Source: an uncultured Oscillospiraceae bacterium
GTDB taxonomy: Bacteria > Bacillota > Clostridia > Oscillospirales > Oscillospiraceae
NCBI GenBank assembly: GCA_947629795.1
Contig: CANRFC010000011.1
Location: 1 to 64,000 of the forward strand
DNA length: 64,000 nt
Direction: 5' to 3'
In this document: piece by piece, positions 4,780 to 12,749 of the stretch
Position numbering within the stretch: position 1 is the stretch's first letter
How the letters are laid out: the number at the start of each line of letters is the position of its first letter
Program-made: the position numbers and the translations under genes
The notes under the pieces: model-generated
Seen by the model: the letters and a program-made list of their open reading frames with translations, nothing else
Told to the model about the DNA's origin: nothing
Databases searched by the model: none

Positions 4780-7700
4780 TCATTGTCCGGCGTATGCCTT
4801 GTCGAACCAGGCCCGCAGCAGGGGATAGGGCAGTTCTCCCGCCGTCCCGTCCACCGTGTACCACTTTGCCTCCTGGCTGTCGCGCTGGGTCTTTACCAGG
4901 CCGTTGTCCCACACCTGGATGAGCTCGTACCAGTCGCTGTCCGAGAGGATGACACTGGCTCCGTCGGGCTCCCGGTCGGGGGCCTCGGCCCGCTCCCAGC
5001 TCGTCCCGCCGCCGCTGCGCAGCTTCTCCAGGCACTCCGCGGCGCCGGGGGTGGTCAGCTCCGATGTGACCGCCCCGCCCCCGCCGCCGGGGTCGCTGCA
5101 GGTGAGCAGCACCGGCTCGCCGTAGGTGAGGGACTCCAGGACGAGCTGGAACTCCAGGGCGGCGTAGCTGGTGGGGCTTACGTCCACCCCGTGCTCCTCC
5201 AGGTCCCGGAAGAACCACTGCCGACCCCAGATGGAGTCCAGTTCTCCCTCGTCGTTTTCAAAGGTGAAGAGGAACTCCTGTCCCTCCCCGGTTTCCAAAA
5301 AGGCCAGACAGCCGGAGAATCCGGCGTGGTCCACACCGGCCCAGCCGTCCTCGGTGAGGTAGCTCCCCCCGGCCCAGACGAACTTCTCCGGCGCCGTGGT
5401 GTGGATCTGCCCGCCGTAGCTCCAGCACCGGATCACCGTGTCCCCCAGGCGGAAGGGCCGGGGCCCGGAGAGGGAGGTGATGCGCCAGTCGTCGATGGGC
5501 ATATCGTACTCCCCGCCGCCGCCGTCCGCCAGGCGGAAGGTCCCGTCGGCCTGCTCGGTGAGCAGGGCGGCAAAGGCCGACTTGGCCTGCTCCACCACAT
5601 CCCCGGGGATCCCAGTGTCCGCCCCCTCCGCCACGTGGTCGATGACGGCCCGGTCGATCTTGTAGACCAGGATATTCTCCCCGTCAAAGTAGAGATACCG
5701 CTCCCACATGGCCCCACCGGTCTCATCGTCCCAGTCGGTGAGCCCGTTGGCGTAGAGGTACCGGCCATAGGGCTCCCACCGGAAGTAGTCCCAGTAGTTC
5801 AGCTCCGGGCAGGCCTCCAGCAGGAGCTTTTCCAGGTCGGCCTCGTACACAACCCCGTCCCGCAGGAAGAAGATCTGCCGCCCGGCGGCCAGCTCGTCCA
5901 CGCCGTCTCCGTCCAGGTCCACCTGGTGGATCACGGTGCTGTCAGCCCGGCACCGGGCCAGCAGGACCAGCGCCCCGTCCCCGTTGAAGCAATAGAGGTC
6001 CCGCAGGTACCCGTCCACCTGCTCGCTGTACTCTGCGGAGTAGTCCACATAGAACCCGTCCCGGCCAAGGAGGTCGTGGAAAAAGTACATATTGCTCTGC
6101 CCGGTGAGGAAGGCGTGATAAACGCCGCTTTCATCCTCATAGGCGGCGGTGTACTTCCCGTCCTCCGCGCCGTAGATGCACACGTGCCTGCCGTCAAAGT
6201 TCCAGCTGGCGGTATACTGGGTGGTGTCGTCCGGCCCCGGGACCTGGGTCACCGCCACCGCCTGGGCGGCGTAGGGCTCCAGGTCCTTCAGGGAGATGAC
6301 CGCCGCCGGCTCGCCGCCGGGCAGCACCGTGGGGATGGCCGGGTGCTCGCACACCTGATTGGACACGAACCAATAGGTCCCGTCCTCCCCCTCCTCCAAC
6401 GTCACACAGTACCAGTTGTTCCCGTTGAAATTGCTGTTGTGGTAGAGCCTTATCAGCGTGCTGCTGCCGGTGGTCTCCCGGGTGCCGCACAGGAAGTCCA
6501 GATAGCCGCAGTAGTTGGTGTCTCCGTGCATCCAGTAGTAGGCGTCATACTGGGCGGAGTAGGTGAAGCCGTCCAACCCCTTCTTGGCGGTGTCGGCGGA
6601 GGTCAGGCCGGTGTTGGCCTGGAGAAGCGCGTCCATCTCCGCCCCTGTCAGCTTGCTGGCGGGGCAGGGCAGGTCGTTCCAGCTCTCGTACCCAAAGACC
6701 GCCTTCAGCTCCTCCTCGGAGAAGGGGATGGTGCCGTCGCAGTAAAAGAGCTGGTAGAGGTCGATGTTCTCGGGCTTGTCATAGAGGTTGAGGGGATTGG
6801 CAAACTGGTTGCGAATGTTGTAGTACTCCCGGGTCCCGTCCCCCCAGGTGGCGTAGAGCTGGCTCTGGTTGGAGCCGGAGGAGTTGAAGAACTGCTCGTT
6901 GAACCACTCCAGCTCTTCTCCGGTGAGGGCCGCGGGCCCAAAGACCTCCACGGGAGCAACGCTCTCCGCGGGCTTGCTGCTCTCCGCGGGCTTGCCGCTC
7001 TCCGCCGGGTCCTGGGTCTGGGCCCCGGTGAAGGTGCAGGCCGCCGTCACCAGGGTGACCAATATGGCCAGGGCCACGGCTGCCGCCGCCACCCGGGGCT
7101 TTTTCGCGATGAGCTTGACCCGTTCCATAATGCCTCCTTTTCTGTCGGTCATGGTGGTGGCCGTCTGCAGGAGCCGTCCCGGCGACGCGCTCACCGCCGC
7201 CATGTCCACCAAGGTTTTTCCATAGGCCAGCCGCTCCGGCTCGCCCAGCCGGGCGATGGCCCCCTCGTCACAGGCCAGCTCGCAGTCCCGCCGGCTCAGA
7301 TCGGCCGCCCACCACACCAGGGGGTCGAACCAGTAGAGGCACAGGCACACCCCCCGCACCAGGGCCCACATCGGGTCCCGGTGCCGCAGATGGGTGAGCT
7401 CGTGGGCCAGCACGTGGCGCAGCCGACGCCCGTCCCCGGCGCAGTCGGGGGTGACGTACACCGCCGGGCGGAGCAGCCCCACCAGACAGGGGGAGGAGAC
7501 CCCGCCCGAGACAAATACCGGCACGGGGCACCCCTCCGCCGCCAGGGGCCTGGCCCCCCGGCGGGCGTGGCGGCGGAAGAAGAGGTTCACGCAGAAGAGC
7601 CACACCCCCATGAGTGCCACGCCGCACAGCCACACCACCGTGAGGACCTGCACCCAGTCCACCGCCGGAGTGGCCCCCGGGGAGAGAAGCTGTGTCCAGC

Positions 7701-8124
7701 CCCCTGCCGGGAGACTTTCCCACAGGGAGGGGGCGTCCCCATCCCCCCGGATGGGCGCTCCGGGAGAAACGGGGTCTGAATGGGTGCCGTCGGAGCCCTC
7801 CACGGGGCCTTTTTCCGGGGAGTCGGGTCCCGAAACAGGGGAGTAAACACCGCCAAAATTCGGCGTTTTTCCCGCCTCCTGCCCCTGCTGGGAGAGGGCG
7901 GGGACCCCCTCCCACCGGGGCAGAGCGGCCTGCTGGGCCGCCTGGGGCACCACATTGAGTACGCTGACCCGGGACCCCGGCAGGCTCACCGGCACCAGCA
8001 GCCGTACCGCCACCACCAGCCACAGGGCGTACTGCAGCCGCAGGCTGATCCGCCCCCGCAGCAGGTAGCGCAGCAGGGCCATCACCAGGATCAGCACCGA
8101 GGAAGTGATGAGCATTTCTCTCAT
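4780..8124 (-). CDS. BlaR1/M56-family membrane metallopeptidase with a long extracellular C-terminal region
   Basis: MREMLITSSVLILVMALLRYLLRGRISLRLQYALWLVVAVRLLVPVSL...VLAHELTHLRHRDPMWALVRGVCLCLYWFDPLVWWAADLSRRDCELACDEGAIARLG. Confidence 0.88.
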   Translation of the reverse strand: MREMLITSSVLILVMALLRYLLRGRISLRLQYALWLVVAVRLLVPVSLPGSRVSVLNVVPQAAQQAALPRWEGVPALSQQGQEAGKTPNFGGVYSPVSGPDSPEKGPVEGSDGTHSDPVSPGAPIRGDGDAPSLWESLPAGGWTQLLSPGATPAVDWVQVLTVVWLCGVALMGVWLFCVNLFFRRHARRGARPLAAEGCPVPVFVSGGVSSPCLVGLLRPAVYVTPDCAGDGRRLRHVLAHELTHLRHRDPMWALVRGVCLCLYWFDPLVWWAADLSRRDCELACDEGAIARLGEPERLAYGKTLVDMAAVSASPGRLLQTATTMTDRKGGIMERVKLIAKKPRVAAAAVALAILVTLVTAACTFTGAQTQDPAESGKPAESSKPAESVAPVEVFGPAALTGEELEWFNEQFFNSSGSNQSQLYATWGDGTREYYNIRNQFANPLNLYDKPENIDLYQLFYCDGTIPFSEEELKAVFGYESWNDLPCPASKLTGAEMDALLQANTGLTSADTAKKGLDGFTYSAQYDAYYWMHGDTNYCGYLDFLCGTRETTGSSTLIRLYHNSNFNGNNWYCVTLEEGEDGTYWFVSNQVCEHPAIPTVLPGGEPAAVISLKDLEPYAAQAVAVTQVPGPDDTTQYTASWNFDGRHVCIYGAEDGKYTAAYEDESGVYHAFLTGQSNMYFFHDLLGRDGFYVDYSAEYSEQVDGYLRDLYCFNGDGALVLLARCRADSTVIHQVDLDGDGVDELAAGRQIFFLRDGVVYEADLEKLLLEACPELNYWDYFRWEPYGRYLYANGLTDWDDETGGAMWERYLYFDGENILVYKIDRAVIDHVAEGADTGIPGDVVEQAKSAFAALLTEQADGTFRLADGGGGEYDMPIDDWRITSLSGPRPFRLGDTVIRCWSYGGQIHTTAPEKFVWAGGSYLTEDGWAGVDHAGFSGCLAFLETGEGQEFLFTFENDEGELDSIWGRQWFFRDLEEHGVDVSPTSYAALEFQLVLESLTYGEPVLLTCSDPGGGGGAVTSELTTPGAAECLEKLRSGGGTSWERAEAPDREPDGASVILSDSDWYELIQVWDNGLVKTQRDSQEAKWYTVDGTAGELPYPLLRAWFDKAYAGQ

Positions 8125-8504
8125 TTCGTCCCCTCCTCCGCCTGCCTGAGAATGTCATAGAGTTCTTCGATCTCCGAGCGGGACAGGCCCTCCCGCTCCA
8201 CCAGGGCGTTGACCAGAAGCCCCACGCTGCCGTGGTAGGCCCGGCGGAGGAGGGAGTCGGTCTCGGCGGCCACCACCCGGTCCCGCTCCACCGCCGCCCG
8301 GAAGAGCTTGGCGCGCCCCTCCTGCCGGTGGGTGAGAAGGCCCTTCTCCTCCATCCGCCGCACCATGGTGGTCACGGTGCTCTTGGCCCAGCCGGCGGAC
8401 TTCTCCAGCTCCCGGACCAGCTCCATAAGGGTCCGGTCCCCCGTCCAGAGGACCTCCATGACCCGCCACTCGCTCTGGGTCAGACTGATGGGCTCGCGTT
8501 CCAT
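8121..8504 (-). CDS. BlaI/MecI/CopY family repressor
   Basis: MEREPISLTQSEWRVMEVLWTGDRTLMELVRELEKSAGWAKSTVTTMVRRMEEKGLLTHRQEGRAKLF; 4-nt ATGA overlap with the M56 gene. Confidence 0.92.
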   Translation of the reverse strand: MEREPISLTQSEWRVMEVLWTGDRTLMELVRELEKSAGWAKSTVTTMVRRMEEKGLLTHRQEGRAKLFRAAVERDRVVAAETDSLLRRAYHGSVGLLVNALVEREGLSRSEIEELYDILRQAEEGTK

Positions 8505-8528
8505 AAACAGGACCTCCCTGAAAACGAT

Positions 8529-8550
8529 TTGGTTTACAGCTGTAAACCAA
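8529..8550. promoter_or_regulatory. BlaI-type operator 1
   Basis: TTGGTTTACAGCTGTAAACCAA, perfect 22-bp palindrome with TACA-N2-TGTA core, upstream of blaI. Confidence 0.85.
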
Positions 8551-11065: not shown

Positions 11066-12442
11066 TCAATACCTGCCCAGATTGCCGGAATTGTGGCCGT
11101 CGTCGCTGCCGAAGACGTAGTCGTTGCCGGGGAGGACGGCGTTGAGGGCGATGCCGGCGATGGCGGCGATGGCCAGGCCGGTGAGGGTTACGCTGGCGCC
11201 GCCCACCTGGAAGGTGAGCCCGCCGGAGAAGCCCAGGCCGCACACCAGGATGACGGCGGCGATGATCAGGTTCCGGGAGTTGGTGAAGTCCACCTTGTTC
11301 TCCACCACGTTGCGCACGCCGATGGCCGAGATCATGCCGTAGAGGATGAAGCTCACGCCGCCGATGATGGCCGAGGGCAGCGCGCCGATGACGGCGGCGA
11401 ACTTGGGGGAGAAGGAGAGGACCAGGGCGTAGGCGGCGGCCAGGCGGATGACCCGGGGGTCGTAGACCTTGGAGAGGACCAGCACGCCGGTGTTCTCGCC
11501 GTAGGTGGTGTTGGCCGGGCCGCCGAAGAGGCCGGCCATGGCGGTGGCGATGCCGTCGCCGATGAGGGTGCGGTGGAGGCCGGGATCCTCGATGAAGTTG
11601 GAGCCCACAGTGGCCGAGATGGCGGACATGTCGCCGATGTGCTCCATCATGGAGGCGATGGCGATGGGGGCCATCACCAGGATGGCGGAGAGGTCAAACT
11701 TGGCCACGGAGCCGGAGAAGTTGGTGGCGAAGGGGGGCAGGCCCAGCCAGGCGGCCTCCTTCACGCTGGAGAAGTCCACCTGGTTGGTGAGCACGGCCAC
11801 GATGTAGGCCCCCACCACGCCCAGGAGGATGGGGATGATCTTCACCATGCCCCTGCCCCAGATGTTGCACACGATGATGATGCCCATGGCGATGAGGGCC
11901 AGCCACCAGCAGGTGGAGGCGTTGCTCACGGCGGAGGGGGCCAGGTTCAGGCCGATGCAGATGATGATGGGCCCGGTGACCACCGGGGGCAGGAAGCGCA
12001 TGACCTTGTGGACCCCCACGGCCTTGACGATGAGGGCCAGCACCAGGTAGAGAAGGCCGGCCACCACGATGCCGCCGCAGGCGTATTGCAGCTTTTCGCC
12101 CTGGGACATGGTGGCGTAGATCCCCTCGTTCATGGCGCCCATGGCGGCGAAGCCGCCCAGGAAGGCGAAGGAGGAGCCCAGGAAGGCGGGGACCTTCAGC
12201 TTGGTGCACAGGTGGAAGAAGAGAGTGCCCAGACCGGCGAAGAAGAGAGTGGTCTGGATGGACAGGGGCATGCCGATGGACTCGCCGGCGGCGCTCTGCT
12301 GGCTGTTGACCAGGATGGGCACCAGGATGGTGGCCCCGAACATGGCGAACATGTGCTGGAGCCCCAGGATGAGCATCTTGGGCACGCCCAGCGTCCGGGC
12401 GTCCCGGATGGGCTCCTGGTTCAGGTCTCGCTTGTCGTTCAT
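11066..12442 (-). CDS. uraA: Uracil/xanthine permease (NCS2 family)
   Basis: MNDKRDLNQEPIRDARTLGVPKMLILGLQHMFAMFGATILVPILV...FGGPANTTYGENTGVLVLSKVYDPRVIRLAA. Confidence 0.93.
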   Translation of the reverse strand: MNDKRDLNQEPIRDARTLGVPKMLILGLQHMFAMFGATILVPILVNSQQSAAGESIGMPLSIQTTLFFAGLGTLFFHLCTKLKVPAFLGSSFAFLGGFAAMGAMNEGIYATMSQGEKLQYACGGIVVAGLLYLVLALIVKAVGVHKVMRFLPPVVTGPIIICIGLNLAPSAVSNASTCWWLALIAMGIIIVCNIWGRGMVKIIPILLGVVGAYIVAVLTNQVDFSSVKEAAWLGLPPFATNFSGSVAKFDLSAILVMAPIAIASMMEHIGDMSAISATVGSNFIEDPGLHRTLIGDGIATAMAGLFGGPANTTYGENTGVLVLSKVYDPRVIRLAAAYALVLSFSPKFAAVIGALPSAIIGGVSFILYGMISAIGVRNVVENKVDFTNSRNLIIAAVILVCGLGFSGGLTFQVGGASVTLTGLAIAAIAGIALNAVLPGNDYVFGSDDGHNSGNLGRY

Positions 12443-12479
12443 TTCACATTCTCCTCTCTTTTTCCGGCCCTTTTTGGGC

Positions 12480-12507
12480 AAAAAAATTACCGGCTCAAAA
12501 GCCGGTA
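12480..12507 (-). terminator. Intrinsic terminator in the uraA 5' leader (attenuator)
   Basis: Minus-strand RNA TACCGGCT-UUUG-AGCCGGUA-A-UUUUUUU, between promoter and uraA start. Confidence 0.85.
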
Positions 12508-12608
12508 GAAAAAATGGAGACGCGGGGAAAAAGGGAAACATGGCCCCCGGGGAATCCGTCGGGAAACACGTGGGGCAAAAGCTCGCGCGCCGCCGAATCC
12601 CTGGTCAT
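12495..12608 (-). CDS. Putative uraA leader peptide, 37 aa, stop codon inside the terminator loop
   Basis: MTRDSAARELLPHVFPDGFPGGHVSLFPRVSIFSTGF*; strong SD AAGGGGAGGGG upstream; absent from the supplied ORF track (too short). Confidence 0.6.
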   Translation of the reverse strand: MTRDSAARELLPHVFPDGFPGGHVSLFPRVSIFSTGF

Positions 12609-12639
12609 GGCTACCCCTCCCCTTGCTTCATTGTCCCGT

Positions 12640-12668
12640 ATCATACCACACCGGATGGGGAAATGCAA
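12640..12668 (-). promoter_or_regulatory. Predicted sigma-A promoter of the uraA leader
   Basis: Minus strand TTGCAT-17-TATGAT. Confidence 0.6.
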
Positions 12669-12705
12669 GAGGGAAAATCAATTTTTGCAAAAGTCACAAA
12701 AAACA

Positions 12706-12728
12706 GGGGACGCCCGGAGGCGTCCCCT
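12706..12728 (-). terminator. Intrinsic terminator after pyk
   Basis: AGGGGACGCC/GGCGTCCCCT hairpin with an A-rich 5' flank on + (U-tract on -). Confidence 0.75.
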
Positions 12729-12749
12729 ATCATGTAAGTCAAAGTCCAC

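Follow-up and report, generated by a model that had tools for sequence, protein, structure and literature searches.

A probable UTP-sensing transcription attenuator of the pyrBI type in the uraA leader of an uncultured Oscillospiraceae bacterium

Pyrimidine control in the Firmicutes is taught as PyrR-based. The PyrR-dependent pyr attenuators of this phylum (RF00515) act on genes of the same pathway as the leader described here; however, they require PyrR and an RNA loop, both of which are missing here, and do not involve translation. In Escherichia coli, the pyrE attenuator (rph-pyrE) is UTP-controlled and has a translation stop near a terminator that is preceded by U residues; the leader there is the end of the large gene rph, whereas the leader described below is a dedicated short open reading frame (ORF). 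According to the accounts of Roland et al. (1988) given in PMC5021804 and PMC4824070, RNA polymerase (RNAP) pauses at low UTP in E. coli pyrBI, and the ribosome then suppresses the terminator. Within the Firmicutes, the Bacillus subtilis vmlR/tlrB-type attenuators share with our leader an upstream ORF (uORF), RNAP pausing and an intrinsic terminator (PMC9226507), but they depend on an antibiotic-stalled ribosome and an antiterminator switch, whereas here no antiterminator is present and the genes concern pyrimidines. In B. subtilis, and by inference in Firmicutes, RNAP runs ahead of the ribosomes and there is little ribosome-coupled attenuation (reviewed in PMC10953045 and PMC7858274), the "runaway transcription" proposal of Johnson et al. 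(2020) as these reviews summarize it. Because Firmicutes RNAP is said to outrun ribosomes, an attenuator that depends on the ribosome catching up is unexpected in Clostridia.

Here, we analyzed a window of 64,000 nucleotides of DNA from an uncultured Oscillospiraceae bacterium, in which uraA on the minus strand is preceded by a leader that very likely attenuates transcription in response to UTP, in the manner of E. coli pyrBI and pyrE (Table 1). The initial annotation had described a promoter, a Shine-Dalgarno (SD) sequence, an ORF and an overlapping terminator, and all of these parts were found in the minus-strand sequence as it gave them. As claimed, the TGA straddles the junction of loop and 3' stem, taking in two loop bases and one stem base, and the hairpin with its U7 tract was also detected by a terminator scan. 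The leader before the hairpin is indeed pyrimidine-rich, with 19 T and 18 C in 50 nt, and among the 15 terminators of the window this one has the highest T count in the preceding 50 nt (19; mean, 10.4). The pyruvate kinase gene upstream ends in its own terminator, and uraA is therefore a separate transcription unit. The promoter hexamers of the window leader, which are of the sigma-70 type, score under the threshold of the promoter tool; sister genomes carry TTGACA or TTGCAA and TATAAT-like boxes at the same positions. The sequence ...AATGA is conserved around the expected start site of the leader transcript, and TTTTTTTGCCC follows the U tract in nearly all sister leaders. The uraA product is an NCS2 protein that is probably specific for uracil; uracil permease is its nearest named equivalog, but the score lies below the cut-off of that model. 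The uraA reading frame could extend upstream as far as an ATG at 12541 (MFPFFPASPFF...; 12541-11066, minus strand). We prefer the start at 12442 because the open frame in several sisters is too short for the extension.

Table 1. Features of the uraA leader and its surroundings in the window
Feature	Position	Strand	Basis
Promoter TTGCAT (12668-12663), 17-nt spacer, TATGAT (12645-12640)	12640-12668	-	Sequence; equivalent boxes in sister leaders
SD AAGGGGAGGGG of leader ORF	12614-12624	-	Sequence; GGAGGG-type SD in sisters
Leader ORF, 37 codons, ATG 12608, MTRDSAARELLPHVFPDGFPGGHVSLFPRVSIFSTGF then stop	12495-12608	-	Hairpin-relative position conserved, amino-acid sequence not
U/pyrimidine-rich tract, candidate UTP-sensitive RNAP pause region (core 12538-12508)	12508-12557	-	Base composition
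Intrinsic terminator hairpin TACCGGCT-TTTG-AGCCGGTA, -12.1 kcal/mol	12488-12507	-	Sequence and terminator scan
Leader stop codon TGA, within terminator hairpin	12497-12495	-	Sequence
A-U7 tract (U7, 12486-12480), then GCCC	12476-12487	-	Sequence
uraA, 458-aa NCS2 nucleobase permease, ATG 12442	11066-12442	-	Nearest named equivalog uracil permease
uraA SD GAGGAG	about 12456-12451	-	Sequence
Terminator of upstream pyruvate kinase gene (gene 14204-12750)	12702-12731	-	Terminator scan

The working model, in which UTP-dependent pausing, occlusion by the ribosome and induction by pyrimidine shortage are proposed by analogy with E. coli pyrBI, would run as follows. RNAP would start at the leader promoter and a ribosome would bind at the strong SD of the leader. 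When UTP is plentiful, RNAP would pass the U-rich tract undelayed and ahead of the ribosome, the hairpin would fold, and transcription would end at the U7 tract before uraA. At low UTP, RNAP would be slowed while crossing the U-rich tract, which reaches back about 50 nt from the hairpin, and the ribosome would draw level. Translation would then proceed to the stop codon, which lies inside the hairpin or, in many relatives, abuts its 5' foot, and the ribosome would cover the 5' arm. With the arm covered, RNAP would read through into uraA and more uracil would be imported. Since such a device requires RNAP to be ahead of the ribosome under normal conditions and to be caught up when UTP is short, the uraA leader would provide a natural test of runaway transcription.

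We searched for uraA in 60 related genomes and also considered 83 more distant uraA loci. An ORF with an SD, overlapping a terminator, was present in 15/15 same-genus uraA leaders, compared with 6/300 dinucleotide shuffles of the same regions, and in 22/83 of the more distant loci, compared with 11/1660 shuffles; these counts carried no requirement for T content. A few further leaders were recognized by eye among the distant loci (L108, L166 and L168), so that 22/83 is a lower bound. The distant carriers include Oscillibacter, Pseudoflavonifractor, Lawsonibacter and other Oscillospiraceae, among them the named strains Pseudoflavonifractor capillosus An386a (L098) and Pseudoflavonifractor sp. 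60 (L105). The leader architecture upstream of uraA is not due to chance. Related genomes are not independent, and the best guard is the recurrence of the architecture with unrelated peptides and hairpins, together with the codBA duplicates described below. Conservation of the ORF-terminator overlap, which the initial annotation had named as a check, holds in every sister, and the overlap recurs with unrelated peptides in other genera. Within the genus, differences between leader ORFs at codon positions 1, 2 and 3 number 277, 258 and 297; since they are spread evenly, the leader peptide is not the conserved feature. In two metagenome-assembled genomes labeled Spirochaetales (L095 and L155), uraA shares about 73% identity with that of the window and has a similar leader, by transfer or misbinning.

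A covariance model (R2) built from 11 uraA leaders was run on the 60 whole genomes. At E < 1e-7, the E-values being rough, it matched only uraA leaders (11) and five codBA leaders (L241-L245), which precede a cytosine permease-cytosine deaminase operon; CodB scored over its equivalog cut-off. The next matches had E > 0.002, and those inspected were simple terminators at unconnected loci. The leader of the window itself is among the more divergent ones and matched R2 only at E = 0.55, so that its membership in the family rests on architecture and synteny. A similar leader, MRKGSGSEERFSFPRLRGRSLSFFFFEWLFFRFLQSRRLCRPVFLCRE then stop, with a 25-T tract, precedes the pyrF-pyrE operon of genome G012. 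The gene downstream is in each of these settings (uraA, codBA, and pyrF-pyrE in G012) a pyrimidine gene. The codBA operon of L258, a relative outside the genus, has no leader. The codB match is split in two pieces in G001 (G001:C46) and G008 (G008:C29) with the leader intact, reflecting decay or assembly error, and an in-frame TGA lies within codB of G001.

The 50 nt before the hairpin contain on average 22.3 T in the leader family, a set chosen by kinship alone, compared with 9.5 at 35 control terminators (p = 1.5e-8). C is not raised over these 50 nt, and the T enrichment peaks from about -30 to -1 relative to the hairpin; at the level of sequence, a U-rich region lies upstream of the terminator. 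Codon choice follows the same pattern, with a TTT:TTC ratio of 55:7 in leader codons versus 96:278 in uraA and a ratio of codons ending in T to those ending in C of 147:76 versus 683:3897. The preference for TTT over TTC in the leaders, and its reversal in uraA, argue that U itself is selected and not phenylalanine. We consider it unlikely that attenuation, though mediated by the ribosome, uses the U-rich tract mainly as a NusG (TTNTTT) pause that synchronizes RNAP and ribosome, the signal being translation speed or another non-UTP cue. B. subtilis vmlR is a documented case of NusG pausing at TTNTTT combined with attenuation under uORF control (PMC9226507), and the motif is present in 19 of 30 tracts from leaders selected by T content, compared with 14.2 expected from composition. 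However, this excess is small and the enrichment is for U as such, the targets are confined to pyrimidine uptake, salvage and synthesis, and there are no conserved stall codons or peptide.

Less probable still is an attenuator controlled by PyrR, by another protein or by a ligand, as in a riboswitch. PyrR control is usual for Firmicutes pyr genes, and other genera of the order have both the PyrR protein and RF00515. However, no PyrR binding loop had been recognized by the initial annotation, and our searches agree: the window leader has no Rfam match, RF00515 has no match in 16 same-genus genomes, and the PyrR protein is absent from 16/16 of these, which gave only weak, partial phosphoribosyltransferase matches. 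A PyrR element or riboswitch was rejected on these grounds. The leaders also have no conserved RNA fold besides the terminator and its outer helix; no consensus fold emerged from alignment A1, in which unrelated stems were mixed. Same-genus leaders keep this outer helix, AUGGGC...GCCCAU, around the terminator and U tract (alignment A2, columns 48-53 with 98-103). It includes two compensated pairs, and its formation is possible only after read-through.

Most Lachnospiraceae without the leader also lack PyrR; PyrR loss alone therefore does not predict the leader, and the presence of PyrR is a weak explanation for leader absence. Of the tested genomes with a uraA leader, only that of L148 (G077) encodes PyrR. 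In the window genome (G000, 98.6% complete), no aspartate carbamoyltransferase (ATCase), dihydroorotase or orotate phosphoribosyltransferase (OPRTase) was found above family cut-offs or beyond weak paralogues, and the organism is therefore probably a pyrimidine auxotroph. As its genome seems to be without pyrB, pyrC and pyrE, uracil import is probably important to it.

Hairpins near pyrC were considered separately. The intragenic hairpin CCCGG...GAGCCGGG of G006 and G008 was rejected as the same device, being made by conserved PGF...REPGF codons and occurring in PyrR-bearing genomes too. In the 5' part of pyrC (L179-L182, L185 and others), the PGFxDVHVHxREPGF codons form a hairpin that resembles a terminator and has a T run behind it, and in several PyrR-less genomes U-rich codons precede it; the hairpin may be a coding by-product. 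In L181, L182 and L185, a terminator CCCACGG...CCTCGTGGGATTTTTT lies about 200 to 100 nt before pyrC, the first gene of a pyr operon, and a few dozen nt past the operon promoter; no leader ORF is obvious there.

The placement of the leader stop codon is a further regularity. The stop ends at +1/+2 of the stem in 20/37 leaders and at the hairpin foot or beyond in 36/37; stops other than at +1/+2 lie mostly inside the hairpin and past it in 3, and the ORFs of L012, L013 and L093 run through the hairpin, as pyrL does. The ORFs start 55 to 101 nt before the hairpin; they have a ribosome-binding site and finish within the intrinsic terminator, at its edge or shortly beyond it. For ordinary genes of these loci, the median end is at -9 (9 nt before the terminator), with 3/29 inside the hairpin. 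Short distances between stop and terminator are common at Firmicutes gene ends, a point against the attenuator reading. The nearness of ordinary stops to terminators in these genomes would suit an ordinary short ORF with a normal terminator (a small protein gene) or a leader that aids uraA translation by reinitiation, in either case without regulation. We nevertheless regard this as highly improbable, more so than control by PyrR or a ligand: the leader stop lies in the hairpin and not before it, the peptide is unconstrained, transcription from the promoter has to pass the terminator to reach uraA, and both the U tract and the restriction to pyrimidine operons are left unexplained.

Pairing of the terminator 5' arm with upstream leader RNA was compared with shuffles in 30 leaders selected by T content. 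It was 0.23 versus 0.47 in shuffles and lower in 27/30, so that no antiterminator was detectable and an antiterminator switch was rejected. We give almost no credence to an amino-acid attenuator (a Phe/Ser leader acting via a terminator/antiterminator switch): the U-rich ORFs do encode many F, S and L, but TTT far outnumbers TTC although both encode Phe, several leaders have few F, the antiterminator is missing, and the target genes are unrelated to amino acids. The leaders show neither the single-amino-acid run nor the terminator/antiterminator switch of trp/his-type attenuators. Peptide-specific stalling and amino-acid sensing were likewise rejected, given the unconstrained peptide and the preference for TTT over TTC.

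Of the described systems, E. coli pyrBI with its leader pyrL is closest to the UTP-sensing attenuator proposed here. Both have a promoter, an SD, a short ORF across a U-rich tract and an intrinsic terminator, and a tail of T7-8 followed by GCCC. Measured by the same script, pyrL gave T50 14, Y50 31, stop +47 and tail TTTTTTTTGCCC. It belongs to another phylum, and its stop lies 47 nt past the hairpin 5' edge, whereas uraA-type stops lie mostly in the hairpin or at its foot; the uraA-type U tract is richer (22 versus 14 T in 50), the targets here are uptake (uraA) and salvage (codBA), and the expected start site here lacks a UUU that would permit reiterative transcription. By eye and by script, no peptide or hairpin similarity to pyrL was seen, and only the tail T8GCCC matches. 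This comparison suggests that the leader works like pyrBI, on other genes, without visible homology to it. The pyrBI-like, UTP-sensing reading of the initial annotation gains support from the U at synonymous positions, the missing antiterminator, and codBA as the other strong matches, with UTP pausing as the part drawn by analogy.

A literature search, in which subscription journals were mostly not covered, found no report of such a leader in Firmicutes. We favor, with some reserve, the broader view that this attenuator evolved independently, is widespread in PyrR-less Oscillospirales and senses UTP to control the uptake and salvage of pyrimidines (uraA and codBA, in occasional cases pyrFE), and that in it runaway transcription would be the "off" state, pausing under UTP starvation the only occasion for the ribosome to catch up, and the loss of uncoupling the nucleotide sensor. 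It would give a large group of PyrR-less gut Clostridia a probable route of pyrimidine control, and transport and cytosine salvage would join the targets of pyrBI-type control. Elsewhere in the window (4780-8550, minus strand), an ORF for a BlaI-like repressor overlaps that for a membrane peptidase of M56/BlaR1-like type, which is extended by a long stretch at its C terminus.
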